From: Lutibacter oricola
GTDB lineage: Bacteria; Bacteroidota; Bacteroidia; Flavobacteriales; Flavobacteriaceae
DNA: 64,000 bases
Assembly (NCBI RefSeq): GCF_900106565.1
Contig: NZ_FNNJ01000008.1
Location: 1 to 64,000, forward strand
Direction: 5' to 3'
Positions 3,187 to 40,781 of this stretch are shown piece by piece (position 1 is the stretch's first letter; the number at the start of each line of letters is the position of its first letter). Made by a program: the position numbers and the translations under genes. A model generated the notes under the pieces. It searched no databases. It saw only the letters and a list, made by a program, of their open reading frames with translations, and was not told the DNA's origin.

Positions 3187-3780
3187 ATGAAAGCTTTTTT
3201 AAGAAAAATAAAATTAATTCAAAATTATTCTTTTAAAGTCTCAGTAAGTAAAATGGATTTTATAAAGATTTTTCGCAAGAATATTGCTGAAGAAAAGGAA
3301 GGCTTTAAAATTTTATTTTTTGAAAAATTTTCGTCAGGAAAAAGACATGTTGGCACTGTTGATCTTAATGAGTTTAAGTTACGAAGAAGACGTAGGTTTT
3401 TAGAAAAAGATACTGTTTGTGTTAGGGGAAAACTTACCCAGTTGAATAAGGAATTAAAAATTGAAACCGAAATTCAAGGAGCAGCAAATTTTAATTTTAT
3501 ATTATATTTTTTGTTCCTTTTTTGTTACGGAATATTTGTTGTTATTTTTTCTCAAAATTTTTTAAATAAGGCAGAACATCCATTTTCGATAATTTTCATT
3601 TGGCTTTTACATGCAGCTTTTGTAATGGGTATACCTTATTTAGTTGTATTAAAAAGAGTTGAAAGAATGAAACGAGAGATGGAGATTGTATTTAAAAATT
3701 GGGTTATGGAAGAAACTTTTGGAATAAAACTAGATTTAAAAACAAAGAAGTTTGTGGTTAAGCCTTTAGAGAAAAATTAA
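3187..3780 (+). CDS. Uncharacterised membrane protein with two hydrophobic segments
   Basis: 197 residues, not recognised. The first ~100 residues are basic and soluble-looking (repeated Lys/Arg, RRRRR near residue 67). Two membrane segments follow, around residues 102-122 and 132-153, separated by a short loop; the C-terminal tail is again charged. This suggests two cytoplasmic domains tethered by a hairpin in the inner membrane. It starts 19 bp after galM and may be co-transcribed with it. It converges on the lacI-family gene. No catalytic motif is visible. The length and clean boundaries support a real gene. Confidence 0.6.
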   Translation: MKAFLRKIKLIQNYSFKVSVSKMDFIKIFRKNIAEEKEGFKILFFEKFSSGKRHVGTVDLNEFKLRRRRRFLEKDTVCVRGKLTQLNKELKIETEIQGAANFNFILYFLFLFCYGIFVVIFSQNFLNKAEHPFSIIFIWLLHAAFVMGIPYLVVLKRVERMKREMEIVFKNWVMEETFGIKLDLKTKKFVVKPLEKN

Positions 3781-3845
3781 TATATAAAAAAACAAGAAGC
3801 AACTTTTAGAATTATATGTGTTTAACGTTACTATTTTATTTTTAG

Positions 3846-4874
3846 TTAGAGTTTAATAGTTGATTCTCGTTCAAGAATCGTAGTTTTTACAATTTTAGTT
3901 TTAGAAGATGATACTTTATCTTCTTCTATTTCTTTAAGTTTAGCAGCCAAAAATCGCATAGCTTGTTCGCCCATAAAAACACCATGTTGGCTTACCGATG
4001 TTACTTTAGGTGTAACATGCTGTAATAACTCGCCATTGGTAAAGCCAATTAACGAAATGTTTTCAGGTATTTTATAGTGTAATTTTTTTAAAATTTCAAG
4101 GGTAGAAATAGTTGCTGTTTCCTCTAAACAAAGAAGTGCATCAACCTTTCTACTTCCCAAAACAACTTTTAATAAGGTTTCTAAATCGTCATTTTTACCA
4201 ACCCTAATAATAAGGTTTTCATCTACTAAAATGTTGTTGTTTTCTAGAGCTTTTTTATAACCTTGTATGCGTAATTTGCCAACACTTGTATGGCTAATTA
4301 TTGAAACTAGCGCAATGTTTTTTCGTTGGTTCGAAATAAAATATTCAGTTGCATCGTAAGCAGCTTTAGCATCGTTTACAATTACCTTATCACAATTTAC
4401 TTCATCGGTAACTCTGTCAATCATTACTAAGCCAACATCTTGTTTAATAGCATTTTTAAAATGACTGTAGTTTTGTAGTTTTTGAGTTTCTTCGGCAAGT
4501 GAAACAATAAAACCATCAACGGTTCCATTAACAAACATATTGGTAGCGTCTACTTCTTTTTGGTAGTTGTCGTTAGAAATACAAATAACCACGTTGTAAC
4601 CGTGTTCATTAGCAATTTTTTCAACACCACTAAAAACTTTAGCAAAATAAAGGTTAAGAATGTTGGGTAAAATTAAACCAATAGTATTTGTTTTGTTACG
4701 TTTTAAACCAAGTGCAAAAATATTGGGTTTATAGCCATTTTCTTTGGCAAATTTTTGAACTTCTTTTCGTCGTTCTTCACTTATATCATAGCTATTTTTT
4801 AATGCTTTCGAAATGGTAGCTATCGAAACATTAAAATGTTTTGCAATGGTTTTTAAAGTGAGTTTTTTCTTCAT
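3846..4874 (-). CDS. LacI-family transcriptional regulator
   Basis: 342 residues. An N-terminal helix-turn-helix and hinge (residues about 5-60; TLKTIAKHFNVSIATISKAL, then NGYKPN) is followed by a periplasmic-binding-protein-like ligand domain with the typical TNTIGLILPN start and VDGFIVSLAEE strand. Such proteins usually repress sugar catabolic operons until a sugar binds. Its position beside xylA, the symporter and galM makes xylose or a related sugar the likely effector, but this is inferred from context. It converges with the membrane-protein gene and has about 220 bp of upstream sequence shared with the divergent CYTH gene. I could not identify a clear palindromic operator. Confidence 0.93.
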   Translation of the reverse strand: MKKKLTLKTIAKHFNVSIATISKALKNSYDISEERRKEVQKFAKENGYKPNIFALGLKRNKTNTIGLILPNILNLYFAKVFSGVEKIANEHGYNVVICISNDNYQKEVDATNMFVNGTVDGFIVSLAEETQKLQNYSHFKNAIKQDVGLVMIDRVTDEVNCDKVIVNDAKAAYDATEYFISNQRKNIALVSIISHTSVGKLRIQGYKKALENNNILVDENLIIRVGKNDDLETLLKVVLGSRKVDALLCLEETATISTLEILKKLHYKIPENISLIGFTNGELLQHVTPKVTSVSQHGVFMGEQAMRFLAAKLKEIEEDKVSSSKTKIVKTTILERESTIKL

Positions 4875-5093
4875 AAAAAATTGAATACTAAAAGCACTAA
4901 ATTAATTAATAAAAACGAATTATAGTTTTTAATTTAAACGAAGTTCTAAAGGTAAATTTAACCGAAATAGGAGTTTATAAAGCTTAAGTTGTTTAATCTC
5001 CATTAAATGTTATCACTTTTAATGATTTTTTATTGTTAAAAGCTATTCTAAAAAGAATCTTATTGTAATTTGCGTGCTATAATTAAAGTTTAA

Positions 5094-5564
5094 ATGAATC
5101 AAGAAATTGAACGTAAGTTTTTAGTAAACGGAGAGTTTAAAAATTTGGCCCAAAAAAGCTATAAAATTGCACAAGGTTTTTTATCTACAGTGCCCGAACG
5201 AACCGTTAGAATTAGAATTAGAGATAATAAAGGTTTTATAACTGTAAAAGGTATTGGAAATCGATCTGGAACAACACGTTTTGAATGGGAAAAAGAAATA
5301 CCTTTAACTGAAGCTGAAACACTTTTAAAATTGTGTGAACCTATAGTTATTGAAAAAATTAGGTATATAATACCTACAAATAATCAATTGTTTTTTGAAG
5401 TAGACGAGTTTTTTGGAGTAAATAAAGGTTTATTAATTGCTGAAATAGAGTTGCCAACTGAAAATACCATTTTTACAAAGCCGAATTGGTTGGGTAATGA
5501 GGTTACTGGAGATGCTAAATATTACAATTCATCACTTTCAAAAAAACCATTTACTTTTTGGTAA
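5094..5564 (+). CDS. CYTH-domain protein (triphosphate tunnel metalloenzyme)
   Basis: 156 residues, matching single-domain CYTH proteins. The signature ExExK motif is at residues 4-8 (EIERK), followed by VRIRIRDNKGFITVKG with the alternating basic residues that line the tunnel, and FEWEKEIP and FEVDEFFG strands with acidic metal ligands. Members hydrolyse triphosphates such as inorganic triphosphate or thiamine triphosphate; the exact substrate cannot be read from sequence. An upstream GTAATTTGC at 5065-5073 resembles a -7 element with a shortened spacer. A lipoprotein gene follows 55 bp later. Confidence 0.88.
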   Translation: MNQEIERKFLVNGEFKNLAQKSYKIAQGFLSTVPERTVRIRIRDNKGFITVKGIGNRSGTTRFEWEKEIPLTEAETLLKLCEPIVIEKIRYIIPTNNQLFFEVDEFFGVNKGLLIAEIELPTENTIFTKPNWLGNEVTGDAKYYNSSLSKKPFTFW

Positions 5565-5619
5565 ATAATGGCTATATTGCAATAACTACTAGAGAAATTA
5601 ATAAATTACTTAATATATA

Positions 5620-6135
5620 ATGAAATTATATAAAATATTATTTATTGCATTATTTGTAATTTTTGTTGGATGTAAAATCGAGAATAAAGCAATTAAAGAA
5701 ACTTCAGATTTAATTCCAGAATGGGTGAAGATTACATATGAATACTCAAAAGATAGTGGAGAGTTTCAAACAGTTCATTTTTTTAAACAAGTAAACGACA
5801 CAGTAAGTTATTGTGTGTATACAAAAACTGAAGGTTTTTCTTGCGAAACATCATTTGTTTCAACTCTTATTGATAAAAAGGAGTTAACAAAGCAAAAAAT
5901 TAGTAATAAGTGCGATATTAACTATGAAGAAATTGTGAATAAATATTCTACACACTCCATGTTAAAATCGAATATAATAAAAACGGTTAGTTATACGGAG
6001 TCAATTCCAGATTCTATGTTAACTTCAACAAAAAGAATAAAAAAAGGTATTAGTTTAATTGATATTAAAAGAGAATTGGATTCTACAGTTCGATTTGTAA
6101 AAATATCTTCTAAAGGCAAGCTTGTAAAAAAATAA
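5620..6135 (+). CDS. Uncharacterised lipoprotein
   Basis: 171 residues. A hydrophobic N-terminus ends in the lipobox FVGC, placing the acylated cysteine at residue 18, so the mature protein should be anchored to a membrane facing the periplasm. The rest is hydrophilic and Lys/Ser/Thr-rich with no recognised domain. It ends 3 bp before the antiporter start codon, so the two genes are probably translated from one mRNA. Function unknown. Confidence 0.7.
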   Translation: MKLYKILFIALFVIFVGCKIENKAIKETSDLIPEWVKITYEYSKDSGEFQTVHFFKQVNDTVSYCVYTKTEGFSCETSFVSTLIDKKELTKQKISNKCDINYEEIVNKYSTHSMLKSNIIKTVSYTESIPDSMLTSTKRIKKGISLIDIKRELDSTVRFVKISSKGKLVKK

Positions 6136-6138
6136 TAT

Positions 6139-7956
6139 ATGGTAGAATTAGCAGGTATTATAATTTTAGGAATTATAGCACAATGGTTTGCTTGGAAATT
6201 TAAAATTCCAGCAATTTTACCATTAATTTTAATAGGGTTATTGGTTGGGCCAATTTCAACATTAATTTCACACGATGGTACAAAATGGTTAGAGCCAGTT
6301 TGGAATGGAAAAGAAGGACTTTTTCCTGGTGAACGACTCTTTAATTTTGTGTCGTTAGCCATTAGTATTATTCTTTTTGAAGGTGGTTTAACGTTGAAAA
6401 AAGATGAAATTTTAAATGTTGGTCCGGCAATAGGTAAATTAATAACCTTAGGGTCTGTAGTTACATTTTTTGGAGCAGGAGTTGCTGCACACTATATTTT
6501 TGAATTAAGTTGGGTAATTTCATTCTTGTTTTCAGCATTAATAATTGTAACAGGTCCAACAGTAATAGGTCCAATTTTAAGAAACATTCCATTAAAAAAA
6601 GATGTTTCTGCTGTATTAAAATGGGAGGGAATTTTAATTGATCCAATTGGAGCATTAGTTGCCGTTTTGGTGTTTGAATTTATAAGTGTTGGTGCAGGTT
6701 ATGAATATACTAGAGAAGCCTTAATTGAATTTGGTAAAATTGTAATTATCGGTATGTCAATTGGTTTTACTTCTGGATATGCAATATTTTATTCGTTGAA
6801 GTTTAAAATTATTCCTCATTATTTATTAAATGTTTTCACATTGGCAAGTGTTTTGGCAGTATTTGTATTGTCAGATTTATTTGCTCACGAGTCAGGCTTA
6901 TTATCTGTAGTAGTTATGGGTATGGTGTTAGGAAATAAAAATGTTACGGAACTAAAAGAAATACTATATTTTAAAGAGTCTATTAGTATTTTATTAATAT
7001 CAATTCTGTTTATTTTATTGGCGGCAAACATTAATATTGAAGATTTAATGTTGTTGTATAGATGGGAGTCGTTAACTCTATTTGCAGTTGTAGTATTTGT
7101 GCTAAGGCCAATTGCCGTATTTTTAAGTACTGCAGGTTCTGGATTAAAATTTAACGAAAAACTGTTTATAAGTTGGGTTGGACCTCGTGGTATTGTTGCT
7201 GCAGGTATAGCATCATTATTTGGTTTAAAATTGGTTATGAAAGGTGAACCAGGCGCTGAATATATTACACCTTTAGTATTTATGATAGTTCTTGGAACAG
7301 TAGTTTTAAATGCAACAACTGCTCGTATTTTTGCCAAAATTGTTGGGGTGTTTTTAAAATCATCTGATGGAATTATAATTGTTGGAGCAAGTAAATTTAC
7401 TAGGCTAATTGCTAATTATTTAAAAAATAATGGTAGAAGAGTAGTGCTAATTGATAGCAATGTTAACCATATTGAAAAAGCAAAAACCTTGGGCTTAGAA
7501 GCTATTCAGGGAGATATTTATTCAGATGAATTGTTGGACGATGTAGAGTTGAACGATATTGGGTATTTATTAGCGTTAACAGGTAGTGCTTCTGTAAATA
7601 ATTATGCTATTGAAAAATTTGAATCAATTTTTGGTGAAAATGGATCTTTTAGAATTATTTCTGCTGATGAGTTAAAGGATGGTGCTGAAGTTTCAAATGA
7701 AAAACTGTTTACACATAAAGATGATTATTTGAATATAAGTGAAATTGTACGAGATTTTCCAATGGTAAATGAAGTAGTTGTAAATTCTGCTGAGAATTAT
7801 AAACAATTATTGAATGATATAGAAAACGAGGGACAAGCTGTACCTATGTTTTTAAAGGATAACAAAGGTATAATTCATATAATCTCATCACTAAACGAAA
7901 CTATAGAAATAGAAAAAGGAAACGTATTAATTTACGTAGGTAAAACATTTATCTAG
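6139..7956 (+). CDS. Cation:proton antiporter (CPA family) with C-terminal TrkA-N domain
   Basis: 605 residues. Residues 1 to about 405 form a multi-span Na+/H+ exchanger domain; IIVTGPTVIGPILRN resembles the TDP-type ion-binding region, and WVGPRGIVAAGIASLFG is a conserved CPA helix. Residues about 412-530 form a Rossmann-type regulatory domain (GIIIVGASKFTRLIANYL, with DS at the end of the second strand), as in TrkA-N/RCK nucleotide sensors. The protein probably exchanges Na+ or K+ for H+ at the inner membrane under nucleotide control. NhaP/CvrA-like proteins have this architecture. Ion specificity cannot be determined from sequence. Confidence 0.88.
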   Translation: MVELAGIIILGIIAQWFAWKFKIPAILPLILIGLLVGPISTLISHDGTKWLEPVWNGKEGLFPGERLFNFVSLAISIILFEGGLTLKKDEILNVGPAIGKLITLGSVVTFFGAGVAAHYIFELSWVISFLFSALIIVTGPTVIGPILRNIPLKKDVSAVLKWEGILIDPIGALVAVLVFEFISVGAGYEYTREALIEFGKIVIIGMSIGFTSGYAIFYSLKFKIIPHYLLNVFTLASVLAVFVLSDLFAHESGLLSVVVMGMVLGNKNVTELKEILYFKESISILLISILFILLAANINIEDLMLLYRWESLTLFAVVVFVLRPIAVFLSTAGSGLKFNEKLFISWVGPRGIVAAGIASLFGLKLVMKGEPGAEYITPLVFMIVLGTVVLNATTARIFAKIVGVFLKSSDGIIIVGASKFTRLIANYLKNNGRRVVLIDSNVNHIEKAKTLGLEAIQGDIYSDELLDDVELNDIGYLLALTGSASVNNYAIEKFESIFGENGSFRIISADELKDGAEVSNEKLFTHKDDYLNISEIVRDFPMVNEVVVNSAENYKQLLNDIENEGQAVPMFLKDNKGIIHIISSLNETIEIEKGNVLIYVGKTFI

Positions 7957-7975
7957 GCTGAAAATATCTTTTATA

Positions 7976-8587
7976 ATGGATTTATTCAATACAGATATTT
8001 TTCAAAATAGATTACCTTTTGATGGTGAAGTTATAAATTACGGATTAGTTTTAAACACTAAGCAGTGTCAACAATATTTAGAGTACTTTTTAAACGCTAA
8101 TTTTTGGAAGCAAGACGAACTTATTATGTTCGGTAAGCATATTACAACTTCAAGAAAAATTGCTTGGTTTGGCGATGCTAATTTTGAATATTTTTACTCA
8201 GGAACAAAAAAAATAGCATTAGAATGGACTCCAGAAATACTAGAACTTAAACAACTAGTTCAAGAGAAAACAGGTGCTAAGTTTAACTCTTGTTTAATAA
8301 ATTTATACCACAATGGTAATGAAGGGCTTGGTTGGCATACAGATAATGAAAAAGAACTAGGCAAGAATCCTATAATCGCTTCGTTAAGCTTTGGAGCAAC
8401 TCGTAAGTTTTCTTTAAAGCATATTGCAAATAAACAAAAAGTAGATCTGCTTTTAGAAACTGGAAATTTATTGGTAATGCAAGGTTCTACCCAAGAAAAT
8501 TGGATTCATTCAGTGCCAAAAAGTAAAAAAATAATACATCCTCGTATTAATTTAACATTTAGGTATATTCGTCATAACTTACTGTAG
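7976..8587 (+). CDS. alkB: AlkB-family 2-oxoglutarate/Fe(II) dioxygenase
   Basis: 203 residues, the size of AlkB2/ALKBH2-like DNA repair dioxygenases, which remove alkyl groups from bases by oxidative demethylation. The iron triad is visible: H121 and D123 in WHTDNE and H178 in WIHSVPK. The 2-oxoglutarate-binding arginines are in the C-terminal HPRINLTFR segment (R190, R196). The SLSFGATRKFSLKH stretch is the conserved substrate-binding region. It starts 19 bp after the antiporter and may be expressed with it. No Ada or other repair gene is nearby. Confidence 0.93.
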   Translation: MDLFNTDIFQNRLPFDGEVINYGLVLNTKQCQQYLEYFLNANFWKQDELIMFGKHITTSRKIAWFGDANFEYFYSGTKKIALEWTPEILELKQLVQEKTGAKFNSCLINLYHNGNEGLGWHTDNEKELGKNPIIASLSFGATRKFSLKHIANKQKVDLLLETGNLLVMQGSTQENWIHSVPKSKKIIHPRINLTFRYIRHNLL

Positions 8588-8672
8588 TTTAATAACTTTT
8601 AAATAATAATTTCGAAACTTTTAAGCAACACTTTTATTGTTAATTGCTTTGTATTAACCATTTTAAATTATT

Positions 8673-9533
8673 TTGGGATCTAATAAAAGTAAAAGAAAAC
8701 TAGATGTAGTTGTTATTTCCGACATTCATTTAGGAACATATGGCTGCCACGCAAAGGAGTTATTAAAGTATTTAAAAAGTATCAATCCCCAAATCGTAAT
8801 TCTTAACGGAGATATTATAGACATATGGCAATTTAGTAAACGCTATTGGCCAAAATCTCATATGAAAGTGATTAAATATTTAATCGGTTGGGTTTCTCAA
8901 GGTAAAAAAGTCTACTATATAACTGGTAATCACGATGAAATGCTTCGAAAATTTGTTGGTTTTGAGTTAGGTTCACTTTTAATAAAAAATAAGGTGGTTT
9001 TAGAACTAGACGAAAAAAAAGCTTGGTTTTTTCACGGCGATGTTTTTGATGTAACAATGCAGCATTCAAAGTGGTTGGCTAAGTTGGGAGCTGTTGGTTA
9101 TGACACTTTAATTTTAATAAATAAAGCAGTTAATTATTTCAGCTCTTTAATTGGAAAAGAAAAAATTTCTTTATCAAAAAAAATAAAAGATAGTGTTAAA
9201 ACCGCAGTAAAATTTATTAATAATTTTGAAGAAACTGCTATAAAAATTGCTATAGATAATAAGTATGATTATGTGGTTTGTGGGCATATTCATCAGCCAG
9301 CATTAAAAGAAATTGAAACTAACAATGGAAGTGTGTTTTACTTAAATTCGGGAGACTGGATTGAAAATTTAACAGCTTTAGAATATTCAGAAAAAGAATG
9401 GAAATTATATAAATACAACGATAAACACTATAAAAAAGAGGAAGCTATTGAACATAAAGAGAATGACATTTTAGATAAAACATCGAAAGAGATATTTGGA
9501 GAGTTAGTGGCAGATTTTAATTTTAAGAGTTAA
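8673..9533 (+). CDS. LpxH-like metallophosphatase (UDP-2,3-diacylglucosamine diphosphatase family)
   Basis: 286 residues. The calcineurin-like metal site is complete: D17 and H19 in SDIHLG, D47 in NGDIID, N86/H87/D88 in GNHD, H121 in FFHGD and H205/H207 in CGHIHQP. The family includes LpxH, which releases lipid X in lipid A synthesis, but other phosphoesterases share the motifs. The start is TTG at 8673: an in-frame stop lies at 8664-8666, and the only codons between are ATT ATT TTG. The gene overlaps the next one by one base (TAATG), so translation is probably coupled. The partner is a glycosyltransferase, supporting an envelope or glycolipid role. Confidence 0.86.
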   Translation: MGSNKSKRKLDVVVISDIHLGTYGCHAKELLKYLKSINPQIVILNGDIIDIWQFSKRYWPKSHMKVIKYLIGWVSQGKKVYYITGNHDEMLRKFVGFELGSLLIKNKVVLELDEKKAWFFHGDVFDVTMQHSKWLAKLGAVGYDTLILINKAVNYFSSLIGKEKISLSKKIKDSVKTAVKFINNFEETAIKIAIDNKYDYVVCGHIHQPALKEIETNNGSVFYLNSGDWIENLTALEYSEKEWKLYKYNDKHYKKEEAIEHKENDILDKTSKEIFGELVADFNFKS

Positions 9534-29106: not shown

Positions 29107-29718
29107 TTAATGAAATTCAACTAAACCAGTAGTAACATCATAAGAAGCTCCTACAATTTCAATTTCTCCATTTTTTTCCATTTCAGCTAAAATTGGACTT
29201 TCTTTTCTTATTCTATCAATAGATACATTTACGTTTTCAAAACTAACTTCTTCTATTTGCTCTTGAGTTAGTTCTCCATCTCCTTTACGTATAGAATTTA
29301 CAGCAGGTTTAATTTTTTCTAGTAAAGGTGTAATGTTACCAAGCTCCACATTTTTACAAGCAGATGTTACAGCACCACATTTTGTGTGGCCCATTACAAC
29401 TAAAATTTTTGAACCAGCAACTTTACAAGCATATTCCATTGAGCCTAGCACATCTTCATTTACTACGTTTCCAGCAACTCTAACGCTAAAAACATCGCCA
29501 ATTCCTTGGTCAAAAACTAATTCAGCAGGAACTCTAGAATCAATACAACTAAGTATTACTGCAAAAGGATATTGTCCTTTACTAGTTTCAAATACTTGAT
29601 CTTTTAAATTTCTTTGTGCTTTTAAGTTTTCAACAAATCTTTTGTTTCCTTCTACCAAAATAGTATGTGCTAATTTTGGTGTTAAATTTTGTTGTGTTTC
29701 TTTAGTTTGTGTTCTCAT
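29107..29718 (-). CDS. Beta-class carbonic anhydrase (copy 1)
   Basis: 203 residues. The zinc ligands and catalytic dyad are visible: C58 and D60 in SCIDSRVPAE, and H111 and C114 in GHTKCGAV. The enzyme interconverts CO2 and bicarbonate in the cytoplasm. It is 11 bp downstream of a SulP transporter and in the same unit as tetR, which suggests a role coupled to bicarbonate transport. A second, clearly related enzyme lies at 35474 beside another SulP gene, with identical spacing of the four key residues. Confidence 0.95.
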   Translation of the reverse strand: MRTQTKETQQNLTPKLAHTILVEGNKRFVENLKAQRNLKDQVFETSKGQYPFAVILSCIDSRVPAELVFDQGIGDVFSVRVAGNVVNEDVLGSMEYACKVAGSKILVVMGHTKCGAVTSACKNVELGNITPLLEKIKPAVNSIRKGDGELTQEQIEEVSFENVNVSIDRIRKESPILAEMEKNGEIEIVGASYDVTTGLVEFH

Positions 29719-29729
29719 TTTTATTTTTT

Positions 29730-31589
29730 TTAGTTATGTTTTTCTTTAATCCAAGCTATAGACTCATCAAATGTTTCGAAAATTTGATCTTCCGGTACTA
29801 AATCTGGAATGATATCAATTCGTTCCATTAGATATCTAGGTTGTTCTAATAAATCTACAAATAATACTGTAATATCGTGAGCTTGTAACTCCTGTAAAGC
29901 ATCTTCCATTGCATATAAACCAGATTGATCCATATATTGCATTCGCCCTAAACGAATAATAACTTTTGAAGCTGTTTTTGGTATTTGTTGTGCTAATTGT
30001 TGAAAATCACTTGTAGAACCAAAAAATAATGGTCCTTTAATATGTTTAATAAATACCTCTTCTTTATATTCTTCAGGAAAATCAATTTCATCTTTCCAAG
30101 ATTCTTCTTTTAACGTTTTAACATCAGAACGTTTAGCAGTTAAATCTCCAATCTTTTTCATAAACATTAGCGAAGCAAATACTAATCCAATACCAACAGC
30201 ATAAACTAAGTTCCAGAAAGTTGACAAACCTAATACAGTAAGCATTATTAGTACTTCCATACTGAATTTTATAGGCCCTATCTTAACATCTTTTGGTAAA
30301 TAAGGAATTGCTTTTAATCCTTTATAATCCATAACCCCAATACCAACTGTAATTAGTATTCCGGCTAAAACGGCTGCTGGAATTTTAGATGCTAATGGTG
30401 CTAATACTAATAAAACAATAAATAACAAAACACCAGCAACCATACCAGAAAGTCTAGTTTTACCACCAGAATTAATGTTTACAACTGTACGGATTGTTGC
30501 TCCTGCACCTGGAATACCTCCAAATAATGAAGCAATACTGTTTCCAATTCCTTGACCAATTAATTCTTTATTTGGTTTGTGTTTGGTTTTAGTCATATTA
30601 TCGGCAACAACACTTGTTAGTAAAGAGTCTATAGCTCCTAAAAGTGCTAGAGTTAGAGCCGTAAAAATATATGGTGTTAAACCGTCTAGATTAAAATCTG
30701 TAAATATGCCGCTTTGGAATTGTGGTAACCCTTGCGGAATTTCAGGTATTGGTCGGTAATCTAAGTTGGCAAGCATTGCAATTGCAGACATTACTACTAG
30801 GGCAACCAAAGTACTTGGAACTTTTGTTGTTATTCGTTTAAATCCATAGATAATAATAATTGTTCCTAAAGCTAAAATTAATTCTAACCAATTTATATTT
30901 TTTATAGCTCTAGGTAATATTTTTAACGCTCCTAAAACACCTGAAGCTTCTTTGCCTGCTAATGTTTTAGATTCTTTTAAAATATCATCTTGAGTAACTT
31001 TGTTTGCGCGATTAATGGTTTCTTTAAAGTCTTCAATTACAAGTATACCTTCTCCTGCTTCATCTTTTAAAATATTTTCAAGAATTAATTCTTCTGCTTG
31101 TGGTTTAAACTGAGTTACATATTCAGTATCTTCTTTTGGATAGTAACCAATAGATGGTAAAATTTGAGTAACTAAAATTATAACTCCAATAGCTGTCATA
31201 AACCCAGAGACAACAGGGTAAGGAATATAACGAATGTATTTTCCTAGTCCAATAACCCCTAAACCAATTTGCATTAGTCCTGCCAACAAGAAAACCATTA
31301 AAATAATTGGTAATGCTTTAGTTACATCACCATCATTAGTAGCAATTATTCCTGCAATTACAACCATACTTACGGCTGTCATTGGTGCTGTTGGACCAGA
31401 AATTTGCGTGTTAGTTCCTCCAAAAAGAGCTGCAAAAAAACTGATAAAAATAGCTCCATAAAGTCCAGCACTTGGGCCTAACCCTGAGCTAACCCCAAAT
31501 GCTAATGCTAAAGGAAGAGCTACAATACCTGCAGTTATTCCTCCAAATAAATCACCGCGAAAGTGTTTAAAGTCAAATAATTTTTTCAT
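29730..31589 (-). CDS. SulP-family anion transporter with STAS domain (copy 1)
   Basis: 619 residues. About 14 membrane segments (FRGDLFGGITAGIVALPLAL at the N-terminus, GPTAPMTAVSMVV, GAIDSLLTSVVADNMT) are followed by a C-terminal STAS domain (KVIIRLGRMQYMDQSGLYAM). A hydrophilic insertion of about 60 residues occurs near residues 150-215. SulP proteins carry sulfate, bicarbonate or other anions. The adjacent carbonic anhydrase makes bicarbonate the likely substrate here. It lies 20 bp after tetR. Confidence 0.92.
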   Translation of the reverse strand: MKKLFDFKHFRGDLFGGITAGIVALPLALAFGVSSGLGPSAGLYGAIFISFFAALFGGTNTQISGPTAPMTAVSMVVIAGIIATNDGDVTKALPIILMVFLLAGLMQIGLGVIGLGKYIRYIPYPVVSGFMTAIGVIILVTQILPSIGYYPKEDTEYVTQFKPQAEELILENILKDEAGEGILVIEDFKETINRANKVTQDDILKESKTLAGKEASGVLGALKILPRAIKNINWLELILALGTIIIIYGFKRITTKVPSTLVALVVMSAIAMLANLDYRPIPEIPQGLPQFQSGIFTDFNLDGLTPYIFTALTLALLGAIDSLLTSVVADNMTKTKHKPNKELIGQGIGNSIASLFGGIPGAGATIRTVVNINSGGKTRLSGMVAGVLLFIVLLVLAPLASKIPAAVLAGILITVGIGVMDYKGLKAIPYLPKDVKIGPIKFSMEVLIMLTVLGLSTFWNLVYAVGIGLVFASLMFMKKIGDLTAKRSDVKTLKEESWKDEIDFPEEYKEEVFIKHIKGPLFFGSTSDFQQLAQQIPKTASKVIIRLGRMQYMDQSGLYAMEDALQELQAHDITVLFVDLLEQPRYLMERIDIIPDLVPEDQIFETFDESIAWIKEKHN

Positions 31590-31609: not shown

Positions 31610-32278
31610 TTAGATAGTGAAATTTATAACCATTTCTGTATAAAATTTTTCAATGGAATTGTTTTCTTTATTAATGTCGGTTAAAGAAGGTAAATGTTCA
31701 GCAAAATATTTTTGATGATGTGCACCTTCAATTATTGTTGAAACTAGCATATGTGGATATTGAAAATCAGGTTTAAGTTCTAATAAAATATCACTTACAC
31801 GTTGTACTACTATTTTATAAGCTTTAAAAAAACCTTTCTTATTTTCGGCATCTACATCTTTTGTGTGATAAGATTTTATAGATTCAGAAATAATAATATT
31901 ACTTAATAAAGTTTCATTTATATATGGAATTAATGTTGACTCCATAACTGGTTTTGTAAGAATGCTAATAGATTTTAATAAACGTTCTTTTGGAGACTCA
32001 ACGTTGGTCGTAGCAAAAACAATTTGATATTCAATCCACCTCCAATACCAACTAGTTAAGTAAACTAGCAACATGTGTTTATTTTTAAAGTAGCGGTAAA
32101 TTGAACTTTCTGGGGAATTAATTTCTTCACCTAATTTTTTAAATGTAAAAGCCTCAAAACCAATTTTATCAATTAATTCAATACTTTTTGAAAGTATTTT
32201 TTTACCTAATTCAGATGAGTCAGGTTTTTTACAATATAGCTCTTTATTTACGTCAAAATTTATGTTTAAATTATTCAT
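31610..32278 (-). CDS. TetR-family transcriptional regulator
   Basis: 222 residues. The N-terminal helix-turn-helix is FTFKKLGEEINSPESSIYRY (about residues 43-62), followed by an all-helical ligand domain. It is the first gene of the tetR-SulP-carbonic anhydrase unit and divergent from the second SulP cluster, so it probably controls both. The 10-mer AGTATTACTA occurs just upstream of its own start (32309-32318) and again as half of a perfect inverted repeat over the opposing promoter, a credible operator. The effector is unknown. Confidence 0.9.
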   Translation of the reverse strand: MNNLNINFDVNKELYCKKPDSSELGKKILSKSIELIDKIGFEAFTFKKLGEEINSPESSIYRYFKNKHMLLVYLTSWYWRWIEYQIVFATTNVESPKERLLKSISILTKPVMESTLIPYINETLLSNIIISESIKSYHTKDVDAENKKGFFKAYKIVVQRVSDILLELKPDFQYPHMLVSTIIEGAHHQKYFAEHLPSLTDINKENNSIEKFYTEMVINFTI

Positions 32279-32308
32279 AAATTACTAAGTATTTATTGTA
32301 AATATAAG

Positions 32309-32318
32309 AGTATTACTA
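32309..32318. promoter_or_regulatory. Candidate TetR operator half-site upstream of tetR
   Basis: AGTATTACTA, identical to the half-sites at 32601-32632, and immediately upstream of a near-consensus -7 box TATATTTA read toward tetR. Confidence 0.45.
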
Positions 32319-32600
32319 GTTAAAAAGAAATTATTGCGCTTATTAATTTAAATAATTAATATAATAAGTAAGCGTTAGTTGGTTGCTAAAGTTGATTTGG
32401 TTTTTTGAAAGGCTACTTTTTTTACTTAGAATCAATTACTTTCATAGTGCTATTAGTAATTAAGTAGACCAGCTAACCCTAATACCAATTAATTGTAGTA
32501 AGAAATAATTGTTTAATTTATTCAGTTAATTTCTTAGAAATAAGCACCTCAAAAAAAGAAATTTACAATGAGTATATAAAAGCTTAACACTTTTTTATGA

Positions 32601-32632
32601 TAGTAATACTATTATTTTTAAAAGTATTACTA
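32601..32632. promoter_or_regulatory. Candidate TetR operator: perfect 10-bp inverted repeat
   Basis: TAGTAATACT (32601-32610) and AGTATTACTA (32623-32632) are exact reverse complements with a 12-bp spacer. The right arm overlaps the first two bases of the -7 box TATATTTG (32631-32638), so binding would block the plus-strand promoter. Confidence 0.5.
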
Positions 32633-32638
32633 TATTTG
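32631..32638 (+). promoter_or_regulatory. -7 promoter element of the small exported protein / SulP unit
   Basis: TATATTTG followed by C, an exact consensus match 23 bp before the ATG at 32662. Confidence 0.55.
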
Positions 32639-32661: not shown

Positions 32662-32958
32662 ATGAAAAAAAGAGGGATTTCTTTATTTTTCTCGGTACTT
32701 TTTCTGCTATTTATAGGCTTACCAACTATTCTTACAATGGTTGATAGTACTATTGATATTTCATTAGTTATTACTACTCCTGATGATGAAGAAAGCGAAA
32801 AGAATTTGGAATTTCAGGTTGTGTTTCCTCAAGTAAAATCAAATAATTCAGGTATTTCAGTATCGTATTTAAAAATTAATTTACTGTATTTCAGTAAAAA
32901 ATATGGTAAACCGTATCTAGATATTATTTCTCCTCCCCCCGATTATCATATTTCATAA
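32662..32958 (+). CDS. Small uncharacterised exported or membrane-anchored protein
   Basis: 98 residues. A basic start (MKKRG) and a hydrophobic segment at about 6-26 form a signal peptide or anchor. An acidic patch (DDEESEKN) follows, and the C-terminus has SPPPDYHIS. No domain is recognised. Translation starts at ATG 32662; the ATG 5 bp earlier runs into a stop after two codons. It has a clear promoter under apparent TetR control and precedes the SulP gene by 84 bp. Possibly a small partner of the transport module; function unknown. Confidence 0.6.
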   Translation: MKKRGISLFFSVLFLLFIGLPTILTMVDSTIDISLVITTPDDEESEKNLEFQVVFPQVKSNNSGISVSYLKINLLYFSKKYGKPYLDIISPPPDYHIS

Positions 32959-33042: not shown

Positions 33043-34635
33043 ATGTTAAAAAGTATTAAAAGTGACTTGCCAGCGAGTATAGTCGTGTTTTTTGTTGCAT
33101 TACCATTATGTTTAGGTATTGCATTAGCTAGTGGTGCTCCTCTTTTTTCAGGTTTAATTTCTGGAATTGTTGGAGGTGTAGTAGTAGGGTCTTTAAGTGG
33201 CTCTAAAATTGGAGTTAGTGGTCCGGCTGCAGGATTGGCAGCCATAGTTTTAACAGCAATTGGAACTTTAGGAAGTTATGAAAATTTCTTGGTAGCTGTT
33301 GTTTTAGGTGGAATTATTCAATTAATTTTTGGCTTTTTAAAAGCAGGAATTATTGGGTATTATTTTCCTTCTTCAGTAATTAAAGGAATGTTAACAGGAA
33401 TTGGAATTATTATTATTCTTAAGCAAATTCCACATTTTTTTGGATACGATTCAGATCCAGAAGGTGACTTTGCTTTTTTTCAAGTTGATGGAGAAAATAC
33501 ATTTTCTGAAATTTTTATGGCTCTAAATAATATTAGCCTAGGTTCTACTATTATTGGTCTTATCGGTTTAGGTATTTTATTACTTTGGAGTAATGTTCTA
33601 TCAAACAAAGGAAAAATATTTCAATTAATACAAGGGCCATTAGTGGCTGTTGTTGCAGGTATTATTTACTTTCTAATAACAGGATCTAATTCAAAGTTTG
33701 GTATTAGTCCTTCTCATTTAGTAAGTGTTCCTGTACCAGAAAGTTTAGATTCTTTTTTAGGGCAATTTAGTTTTCCAAATTTCTCTCAAATTACAAACCC
33801 AGAAGTTTGGATTGTTGCATTTACAATAGCATTAGTAGCTAGTTTAGAAACTTTATTATGTGTAGAGGCTACAGATAAGTTAGATCCACATAAAAATGTT
33901 ACTCCAACAAATAGAGAGTTATTAGCACAAGGAACTGGTAATATAGTTTCTGGATTAATTGGAGGTTTACCAATAACACAAGTAATTGTAAGAAGTTCTG
34001 CTAACATTCAATCTGGAGGAAGAACTAAAATGTCGGCAATTATTCATGGTCTTTTACTACTTACTGCAGTAATTCTTATTCCTAGACTTATTAATAAAAT
34101 TCCTCTTTCGGTATTAGCAGCCATCCTTTTTATTGTGGGGTATAAATTAGCTAAACCAGCACTATTTAAAAAAATGTACAAATTAGGTTGGAAACAATCT
34201 GTACCGTTTTTTGTTACTGTAATTGGAATTGTATTTACGGATTTATTAGTAGGTATTGGATTAGGTTTATTAGTTGGTATAGTTGTTATTTTATTAAAAA
34301 GTTATCAAAACTCTCACTTTCTACATATTGAAGATAAGAGCAACGGAAAACATAAAATTAAAATGGAACTTGCTGAGGAGGTAACCTTCTTTAACAAAGG
34401 TGCTATTTTAAAAGAATTAGATAGTTTACCTATAGATACTTACTTAGAATTTGATGTTACTAAAACCAGGTATTTGGACTATGATATTATAGAAATTTTA
34501 GAGGATTTTGCATTTAAAGCCAAAGAAAGAAATATTGATATTAAGTTAATTTCAAAAAGAGGTATTGTTGAAAATCCATCTAGTTTTATTGAGTTTTTTC
34601 AATTGAGACCTAAGTCTAACATAAGTTTAAGTTAG
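33043..34635 (+). CDS. SulP-family anion (probable bicarbonate) transporter (copy 2)
   Basis: 530 residues. The membrane domain starts LPASIVVFFVALPLCLGIAL, with GVSGPAAGLAAIVLTAI and ETLLCVEATDKLDPHKN as conserved SulP segments. The C-terminal ~90 residues contain EVTFFNKGAILKELDSLP and a STAS-like DVTKTRYLDYDIIEIL strand-helix, shorter than in copy 1. It is clearly of a different SulP branch from copy 1. UspA and carbonic anhydrase genes follow at 6 and 25 bp, as in known SulP-carbonic anhydrase bicarbonate modules. A possible -7 box TAGTTTTG lies at 33008. Confidence 0.92.
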   Translation: MLKSIKSDLPASIVVFFVALPLCLGIALASGAPLFSGLISGIVGGVVVGSLSGSKIGVSGPAAGLAAIVLTAIGTLGSYENFLVAVVLGGIIQLIFGFLKAGIIGYYFPSSVIKGMLTGIGIIIILKQIPHFFGYDSDPEGDFAFFQVDGENTFSEIFMALNNISLGSTIIGLIGLGILLLWSNVLSNKGKIFQLIQGPLVAVVAGIIYFLITGSNSKFGISPSHLVSVPVPESLDSFLGQFSFPNFSQITNPEVWIVAFTIALVASLETLLCVEATDKLDPHKNVTPTNRELLAQGTGNIVSGLIGGLPITQVIVRSSANIQSGGRTKMSAIIHGLLLLTAVILIPRLINKIPLSVLAAILFIVGYKLAKPALFKKMYKLGWKQSVPFFVTVIGIVFTDLLVGIGLGLLVGIVVILLKSYQNSHFLHIEDKSNGKHKIKMELAEEVTFFNKGAILKELDSLPIDTYLEFDVTKTRYLDYDIIEILEDFAFKAKERNIDIKLISKRGIVENPSSFIEFFQLRPKSNISLS

Positions 34636-34641
34636 TAAGAC

Positions 34642-35448
34642 ATGAGAAATTTTAAATATAAAATACTCGTACTTTCAGACTTAAAAAAAACAGCAAATTC
34701 AACATTAAAAAGTAGTGTAAGTTTAGCTAAGATGATTGGTGCGGAAATAACATTATTTCATGTTAAAGAATACATAGATATTGTAGATAGAGACAACCAA
34801 TTAACTACAATGCGAACTTTAAATGAAGAGCATAAGAAAACCAAAAAGAAAATAAATGACATTGTTAATAGCTTTTCAAAAGAATACGATGTAAAAATCA
34901 ATGGTAATTATGCATTTGGAAAAGTGAAAGAAGAAATTCAAAAACAAATAGAAGCTTACAATCCAGATATTATTGTTTTAGGCCATCGAAAGGCGGCTCC
35001 TTTTAAATTAATTGGAGATAGCATTACACGCTTTGTACTAAAAAAGTTTAATGGAGTTATAATGATTTCTTCAAATGAAAACGCATTATCACCCAACGAA
35101 AAAATGTCCTTAGGAGTATTAAATGGTTCTAATAAAATTATGAAAACTGAGCTTTCTAACGATTTAATGCCGCATACAAAAGCGCCATTAAAATCTTTTA
35201 GAATTCTTAATAGTCAAGATGCAACTAAAGACACATCAAAATTAAACGAAGAAAAAATGGTAGAATATGTATTTGAGCAAAACGCGAATGCTATGAAAAC
35301 ACTTTCTTCGTATTTACAAAAAAACAACATTAATTTATTATGTGTAGATAGAGATAAAAATAACGGAAATAACACTGTAAATGCAGAGACATCATTAAAA
35401 GAGGTAGTAAGCAAGTTAAACGTTTCGTTATTAGTTTCTGAAGCATAA
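34642..35448 (+). CDS. Universal stress protein (UspA) family
   Basis: 268 residues, about twice the minimal Usp length. The N-terminal domain (residues 1 to about 145) has KILVLSDLKKTANSTLKSSV and the nucleotide-binding loop VLGHRKAAPFKLIGDSITRF. The second half is degenerate and lacks a clear binding loop. It lies between a SulP transporter and a carbonic anhydrase, 6 and 25 bp apart, so it probably modulates or senses the state of the transport unit. Cytoplasmic. Confidence 0.85.
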   Translation: MRNFKYKILVLSDLKKTANSTLKSSVSLAKMIGAEITLFHVKEYIDIVDRDNQLTTMRTLNEEHKKTKKKINDIVNSFSKEYDVKINGNYAFGKVKEEIQKQIEAYNPDIIVLGHRKAAPFKLIGDSITRFVLKKFNGVIMISSNENALSPNEKMSLGVLNGSNKIMKTELSNDLMPHTKAPLKSFRILNSQDATKDTSKLNEEKMVEYVFEQNANAMKTLSSYLQKNNINLLCVDRDKNNGNNTVNAETSLKEVVSKLNVSLLVSEA

Positions 35449-35473: not shown

Positions 35474-36106
35474 ATGAAAGCACATACAAGAGAAACACAA
35501 GCAACTATGACTCCAGAGAAGTCATTACAATATTTAATTGAAGGAAATAAAAGATTTCAGGATAACTTAAAAGCAAACCGTAACTTATTAGAACAAGTAA
35601 ATGATACAAGTGAAGGGCAATTTCCATTTGCAACAATTTTAAGTTGTATAGATTCTAGGGTATCTGCAGAATTGGTTTTTGACCAAGGTTTAGGAGACAT
35701 TTTTAGTGTACGTATTGCGGGTAATTTTGTAAATGATGATATTTTAGGAAGCATGGAGTTTGCATGTAAATTGGCAGGAACTAAGCTTATTGTGGTTTTA
35801 GGTCATACTGCATGTGGAGCTGTAAAAGGAGCGTGTGACGATGCTAAATTGGGAAAGCTTACCGGAATGTTGTCAAAAATTAAACCAGCCGTTAATGCAG
35901 TAACTTCACCTGAAGACTCTAGTTTAAGAAACTCTGGAAATATAGAGTTTGTAAACAATGTAGCTGAACAAAACGTAATGTTAACTATCGATAAAATTTT
36001 AAAGGATAGCGAAGTTTTGGCTGAAATGCAAAGCAAAGGTGAAATCAAGATTGTTGGAGCAATGTATGATATTCATTCAGGAGCAGTAAAGTTCTATGAG
36101 CAATAA
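35474..36106 (+). CDS. Beta-class carbonic anhydrase (copy 2)
   Basis: 210 residues. Active-site C58 and D60 (SCIDSRVSAE) with H111 and C114 (GHTACGAV), at exactly the same positions as in copy 1 at 29107. The two proteins are plainly paralogues (shared EGNKRF, NRNL/QRNL and QGLGDIFSVR-type blocks). Last gene of the plus-strand SulP-UspA-CA unit. Cytoplasmic CO2/bicarbonate interconversion. Confidence 0.95.
   Translation: MKAHTRETQATMTPEKSLQYLIEGNKRFQDNLKANRNLLEQVNDTSEGQFPFATILSCIDSRVSAELVFDQGLGDIFSVRIAGNFVNDDILGSMEFACKLAGTKLIVVLGHTACGAVKGACDDAKLGKLTGMLSKIKPAVNAVTSPEDSSLRNSGNIEFVNNVAEQNVMLTIDKILKDSEVLAEMQSKGEIKIVGAMYDIHSGAVKFYEQ

Positions 36107-38188: not shown

Positions 38189-40781
<2,593 letters not shown>

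Follow-up and report, generated by a model that had tools for sequence, protein, structure and literature searches.

Putative operators of a local TetR-family repressor shared by two divergent SulP transporter and carbonic anhydrase units

The TetR/TetA system of Tn10 has palindromic intergenic operators, through which TetR controls its own gene and a divergent transporter. CcmR of cyanobacteria is a LysR-type protein, not a TetR, and comes from another phylum. An excerpt of a published study (PMC3401165) describes it as a transcription factor of inorganic-carbon uptake genes, and the locus reported here is similar in this respect. The regulator of our locus, TetR1, shares with the Tn10 system the TetR_N domain, the palindromic intergenic operators, and the combination of own gene and divergent transporter. 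It differs in that its own operon also carries putative targets, the operator is another one, and there is no link to tetracycline. The match to Tn10-class TetR chains was weak and confined to the helix-turn-helix (profile residues 27-72 at most, plain class B chains). QacR, which binds DNA as a cooperative pair (PDB 1jt0), has the TetR fold (Foldseek rank 33, TM 0.58) and is a possible parallel for paired dimers; in contrast, the locus has two separate 13-bp palindromes 21 bp apart, on which cooperativity is putative. FadR of Bacillus halodurans (PDB 5gp9) was the best sequence match among solved structures (E 1.6e-7), but this match is weak and covers profile residues 27-138 only, and the targets differ. 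TetR1 (222 aa) has an N-terminal TetR_N helix-turn-helix (PF00440, E 1.2e-7, 31.8 bits against a cut-off of 24), and its predicted monomer model was TetR-like and all-helical, with ten helices (pLDDT 92.7), in agreement with the family's fold, which includes a C-terminal ligand/dimer domain. Most of the listed Foldseek matches of this model were named TetR-family or transcriptional regulators, with a TM by query of 0.46-0.63; they were too weak to name any ligand from structure. The recognition-helix region was nearly invariant across 26 aligned sequences.

The window (the whole stretch of DNA that was analysed, 64 kb) belongs to a genome of 4.1 Mb (G000), in which TetR1 was the only family member found. 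Two units at 29.1-36.1 kb diverge from an intergenic region of 383 bp. The leftward unit, on the minus strand, consists of tetR (31610-32278), the anion transporter SulP1 with a STAS domain (29730-31589; PF00916, PF01740), located 20 bp behind tetR, and, after a gap of 11 bp, the beta-carbonic anhydrase CA1 (29107-29718; PF00484). The rightward unit, on the plus strand, consists of a 98-aa ORF (ORF98, 32662-32958), the anion transporter SulP2 (33043-34635; PF00916), a universal stress protein (Usp, 34642-35448; PF00582), and a second beta-carbonic anhydrase, CA2 (35474-36106; PF00484). Both carbonic anhydrases scored above the cut-off of NF011765. Against the BicA equivalog NF050096 (cut-off 880), SulP1 reached 414.5 bits and SulP2 163.2 bits. 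SulP1 is BicA-like, below the equivalog cut-off; both transporters are of the SulP family by PF00916, and their substrate is putative. Bicarbonate uptake is the probable role of both gene sets. ORF98 has an N-terminal hydrophobic stretch and a PPPD tail, gave no Pfam or NCBIfam match, and belongs to a TetR-linked group. Similar small proteins with a hydrophobic N-terminus, an acidic middle, and a PPPE/PPPD tail were seen near tetR in SulP/CA and ABC contexts (L035 9826-10155, L036 7147-7479, L164, L166, L169, L170, L172, L175, L177, L179, and L354, among others), and the four members of the group that were tested had no Pfam match above cut-off. A simple scan without control windows found a PPP[ED]-tailed ORF in 20 of 163 other loci, at most 3.5 kb from tetR.

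The preliminary description had placed the 10-mer AGTATTACTA upstream of tetR and in the opposite promoter. The copies were located as claimed, at 32309-32318 (+), 32601-32610 (-), and 32623-32632 (+). All three lie within the intergenic region and are the sole exact copies in 64 kb, against 0.27 expected; none of 100 shuffles reached three. Each copy is a near-palindrome AGTA-W-TACT, and the palindromic core AGTAWTACT occurs once in the tetR promoter (centre 32313) and twice in the opposite promoter (centres 32606 and 32627). The inverted repeat formed by the latter two was indeed perfect, over 11 bp (32600-32610 with 32623-32633, 12 nt between the arms). Reading it as one operator with two arms is less apt: as either copy is nearly palindromic on its own, the region is better described as a pair of complete operators whose centres are 21 bp (two helical turns) apart. 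The putative left operator of the ORF98-SulP2-Usp-CA2 unit (32600-32612, +) is palindromic over 13 bp with a single base in the middle, ATAGTAATACTAT, and is centred at about -37. The putative right operator (32621-32633, +) has the core AGTATTACT at 32623-32631 and is centred at about -16. The putative operator of the tetR-SulP1-CA1 unit (32305-32321, -) has the core AGTATTACT at 32309-32317, an exact core at the same place as in the family promoters. A degenerate and doubtful second site, AGTATTTAT (32288-32296, -), was noted from the 31-nt repeat D1 and from the twin pattern with 2 mismatches; its centre is 21 bp from that of the tetR operator, the same spacing as in the ORF98 promoter. The exact twin pattern occurred once in the window. 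With up to 2 mismatches there were 2 matches, compared with a mean of 0.00 in 100 shuffles, and the second match (2 mismatches) was 32288-32317 in the tetR promoter. The exact twin was also present in the closest relative, G010, and in no genome other than G000 and G010 among the matches listed for 60 genomes. The left core was kept in G010, G024, G025, and G038; the right operator was exact in G010, and G024, G025, and G038 had AGTATTATT at equal spacing.

According to an excerpt of a study of Flavobacterium psychrophilum (PMC9723704), the sigma-A box TAnnTTTG spans -12 to -5. By this consensus, the ORF98-SulP2 promoter has a predicted -7 box TATATTTG at 32631-32638 (+), which the right operator overlaps; an overlap of the repeat with the -7 box of the opposite unit had been proposed before and was found again here. 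The tetR promoter has a -7-like box TATATTTA at 32299-32306 (-), where the family consensus is TATATTTG. When the transcription start was predicted from the -7 box, the operator centre was near -19 in the tetR promoters, including that at 32313, and near -16 and -37 in the rightward promoter of the window. The consensus of 62 family sites, T-R-A-T-AGTAWTACT-A-T-T-A-T-A-T-T-T-G-C, is TRATAGTAWTACTATTATATTTG running into the sigma-A -7 box. Since it runs into TATATTTG, the palindrome touches the -7 box. The tetR promoters of the family have a single short palindrome at one distance from this box, and that of the window is a poor example, with TATATTTA for TATATTTG and C for the usual A beside the core.

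A total of 60 genomes (own and 59 relatives) were searched for TetR1 orthologues, which were found in 19 other genomes at E below 1e-45, with one copy in the own genome. The exact core was present upstream of 20 of 26 near TetR genes, the window's included (200 bp, counted by eye); ten loci of other TetRs, with a match at E 1e-4 to 1e-3, had it nowhere. The preliminary description had asked for a motif search upstream of orthologous clusters, and the motif passed it in two larger sets. The named set comprised the best 80 loci from the 26-row TetR alignment, from which L187 and L207 were dropped for too little upstream DNA. The exact core lay within 250 bp upstream in 62 of its 78 loci (one mismatch in 7, more mismatches in 9), compared with 7 of 1391 control windows taken from these loci and 0 of 78 for the reversed pattern. 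The phylum sample contained 395 genomes, 56 with a TetR match at E 1e-30; its 63 listed matches gave 60 loci after G000 and the G040 and G053 matches, already covered before, were left out. Here the exact core was found in 34 of 60 (one mismatch in 14, more mismatches in 12), compared with 2 of 984 control windows and 1 of 60 for the reversed pattern. Many of these loci are related, and the two sets may share species. No exact core was thus present within 250 bp in 16 of 78 named and 26 of 60 phylum loci, and 5 of the 16 are explained by gene order. Covariation between the arms was weak among 140 sites, with related loci counted separately: both arms were changed yet complementary in 3, 3, and 12 sites at offsets 5, 6, and 7 (expected 0.62, 0.18, and 9.45), and in none at offsets 1-4. 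A palindromic operator overlapping the own promoter is a TetR-family trait, and the conservation of the site agrees with it. Because the same site stands at the same place before many Bacteroidota TetR relatives, the three sites are very likely docking sites of TetR.

The five loci explained by gene order (L162, L173, L209, L224, and L233), scored as misses among the 78, have the site before the first gene of the row. In L162, L173, L224, and L233, SulP and/or CA precede tetR, and the core is located before the first of these genes; in L162, roughly 600 bp separate it from SulP, and a PPPE-tailed ORF lies in this gap. In L209, the core is 46 bp before a TerC gene preceding tetR. By its position in these rows, the site follows the first gene and not the tetR start codon. 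The search for SulP2 relatives listed 18 (weakest E 1.9e-145, the window's own included), of which 17 were examined, the second G024 gene having no locus. All 9 beside this TetR have the core, 7 in the shared region and 2 before the tetR of the row (G011 and G059). In genomes without this TetR (G037, G048, G052, and G055), the core was absent from the 900 bp before all 4 relatives, which also fits the proposed repression of both arms by TetR. In 4 relatives far from this TetR, which their genomes encode elsewhere (G039, G040, G042, and G053), the exact site was found in 0 of 4 within 900 bp. Control in trans of distant SulP2 relatives was rejected on this basis, and TetR control looks local only.

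We consider it highly probable that the three sites are operators of the local TetR repressor, which would control both units. Site conservation, contact with the -7 box, and placement before the first gene together indicate that TetR probably represses both tetR-SulP-CA and ORF98-SulP-Usp-CA, and to this extent the earlier proposal was borne out. In this reading, TRATAGTAWTACTATTA is the palindrome that a TetR dimer would bind. The copy at tetR occupies the DNA directly upstream of the -7 box and makes contact with it; TetR bound there should obstruct RNA polymerase and hold expression of tetR-SulP1-CA1 down. On the ORF98 side, a pair of dimers 21 bp apart could cover the -33 and -7 regions of ORF98-SulP2-Usp-CA2. 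An inducer, whose signal is probably the inorganic-carbon, pH, or ion state, would free the DNA of TetR, and the two transporters and the two carbonic anhydrases would then be turned on at once. The mechanism is very likely ordinary, that of an autoregulated TetR repressor, and judged by the site counts the operator reading holds more widely than had been claimed.

On this view, the opposite promoter would originally have been that of another repressor gene, tetR2, which has since decayed, and the remaining TetR would have kept control of the operator. In G024, the gene order is SulP1-tetR1-tetR2-ORF98-SulP2. The intergenic DNA of the window is collinear with this locus: it corresponds to the tetR1 and ORF98 promoters at its two ends and, at 32419-32575 (-), to the interior of tetR2. 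In blastn against a very small database, this relic matched the intact tetR2 of G024 at L032 8954-9044 (70% over 91 positions, 7e-8) and at L032 9083-9151 (71% over 70, 1e-4). In tblastn, G024 TetR2 matched the minus strand of the relic with 31.2 bits (best of 200 shuffles 25.0). Other TetR2-type proteins gave 21.6 (L042) and 23.1 bits (L046) in the window, compared with 23.5 in shuffles, and 21.9 bits (L050), compared with 21.2. In G010's copy of the region, L042, L046, and L050 gave 30.4, 27.7, and 22.7 bits (shuffles from window DNA only). Three TetR1 proteins stayed below their shuffles, made from window DNA, in the relic region of both the window and G010. TetR1 and TetR2 fall into distinct clades (98 and 99% SH-aLRT). 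From the collinear relic and the TetR2 matches, tetR2 was most likely lost by decay in the lineage that includes G000 and G010, and from the place of the relic the surviving TetR appears to have inherited the operator of the lost gene. A further TetR, of the ABC branch, is present in G010. In G024, the CA2 match was split over two frames (residues 1-50 and 48-207; L032 12204-12823), a frameshift or an assembly error.

The same relic, together with the single TetR of the family in the own genome, can be read differently: TetR would act on its own promoter only, and the twin would be an unregulated leftover of tetR2. We regard this as unlikely. Both twin cores are intact in G000 and G010, two genomes with 88% overall identity in this intergenic DNA. 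These two carry AGTATTACT as the right core, versus AGTATTATT in G024, G025, and G038, which have tetR2-type genes, and this one substitution is towards the consensus, not towards decay. It points to continued use of the twin operator but is not proof.

The site could also belong to a more global DNA-binding protein, with tetR as a mere passenger, which we judge to be improbable. The exact 13-mer was present in 18 of 20 genomes with this TetR and also in 14 of 40 without it (Fisher p 7e-5, kinship ignored). The copies in genomes without it are, however, at background, with 16 sites versus 19 for the reversed control, compared with 32 versus 13 in genomes that have it. Outside the locus, the own genome has two more exact 13-mers, both within reading frames (L055 1471-1914 and L056 849-1622), which speaks against a global protein, and a wider regulon in the own genome was rejected for the same reason. 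Moreover, the site follows TetR across SulP/CA, alpha-CA-NhaA, and ABC-HlyD-TolC neighbours. Operator regulation by the local TetR remains our preferred reading, and there may be a few further TetR targets in the own genome: with up to one mismatch, the 13-mer gave 41 sites versus 19 for the reversed control, and 15 loci were inspected. The operator plus -7 box and the twin, each with 2 mismatches, were discarded as evidence, as their counts were near controls in many genomes.

A link to peroxide defence had been suggested from a similar 10-mer upstream of katG, ATATTACTAG, which is present at 40542-40551 (+). Control of katG by TetR through this site is very improbable, and the link was dropped. 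The 10-mer is shared in part and a 13-mer with one mismatch lies at 40617-40629, but one copy against 0.35 expected is a chance number, and at least one copy turned up in 32 of 100 shuffles. In 31 genomes that were searched, 13 katG relatives were found (14 less the window's own), and the 10-mer or the exact core occurred in the 420 bp upstream of none of them. The best were one-mismatch matches, to the core in 6 of 13 and to the 10-mer in 2 of 13 (L250 and L251); L250 is counted in both groups, and its genome, G003, gave no match to TetR1. We judged the 10-mer at katG to be a chance match and rejected the gene as a TetR target. The inverted repeat, with its perfect 11-bp arms and 12 nt between them, might instead form an RNA hairpin, as an attenuator or terminator; this is still less probable, since the repeat overlaps the -7 box and should lie upstream of the transcript, and the tetR promoters keep only the single short palindrome. 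Chance repeats in AT-rich DNA (28% GC in the 2-kb block around the site, and 23 copies of AGTATTACTA with up to one mismatch in the window versus 8.95 expected) have a negligible probability, being contradicted by the conservation in both locus sets and by the shuffles of AGTATTACTA and of the twin.

For 103 TetR loci, 80 of them named and 23 taken from relatives, the neighbouring genes were recorded from -3.5 to +6.5 kb. SulP was found near TetR in 37, beta-CA in 34, alpha-CA in 2, ABC with HlyD in 54, DUF2490 in 15, Nha antiporter in 5, TerC in 2, and Usp in 3; SulP, CA, and ABC were all absent in 7. In the phylum sample, 45 of 60 loci had ABC, 7 SulP/CA, and 8 neither. The carbon and ABC contexts formed clusters on a quick tree of 104 TetRs, with 13 changes between them, and shuffled labels needed far more; many branches are weak, and the supported branches alone force only 3 changes for the carbon label. 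Judging from the SulP/CA, alpha-CA, and NhaA neighbours, a role of the carbon branch in inorganic-carbon, pH, or sodium balance is plausible. As a tentative proposal, which we think possible and do not favour, this would be a phylum-wide TetR regulator with one operator and two programmes, inorganic-carbon/ion homeostasis and an ABC-HlyD-TolC exporter, under one shared cue (bicarbonate, pH, or a linked metabolite). If true, one of two paralogous repressors was lost in this lineage and the other took over its operator, fusing two carbon modules into one regulon. The shared operator ties the exporter to the same regulator family and is a lead to its function. Among the listed titles and abstract openings of open-licence literature, we found no description of this operator or regulator family and, for Bacteroidota, no circuit that controls SulP transporters and carbonic anhydrases; a text search for four forms of the site in such sources gave only a yeast and a Streptococcus paper, judged unrelated. 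The locus offers a testable circuit of this kind and, next to an operator that another repressor seems to have taken over, still retains the remains of a former repressor gene.

Some further loci were noted. In L174 (7001-10641), tetR with the operator, alpha-CA (PF00194), DUF2490, and NhaA (PF06965) stand in one row, a case of dissimilar genes behind one site. A TerC-family gene precedes tetR-ABC-HlyD-TolC in L209 (6225-12175) and in L332 (about 3590-8691, turned to tetR +), and in L332 the core is about 700 bp before this gene. The TetR of this Bacteroidota type was also found on MAG contigs labelled Lysobacterales, Alcanivoracaceae, Kangiellaceae, and Bifidobacterium breve (L158, L159, L165, and L229), owing to misbinning or transfer; all four have the exact 13-bp palindrome upstream.
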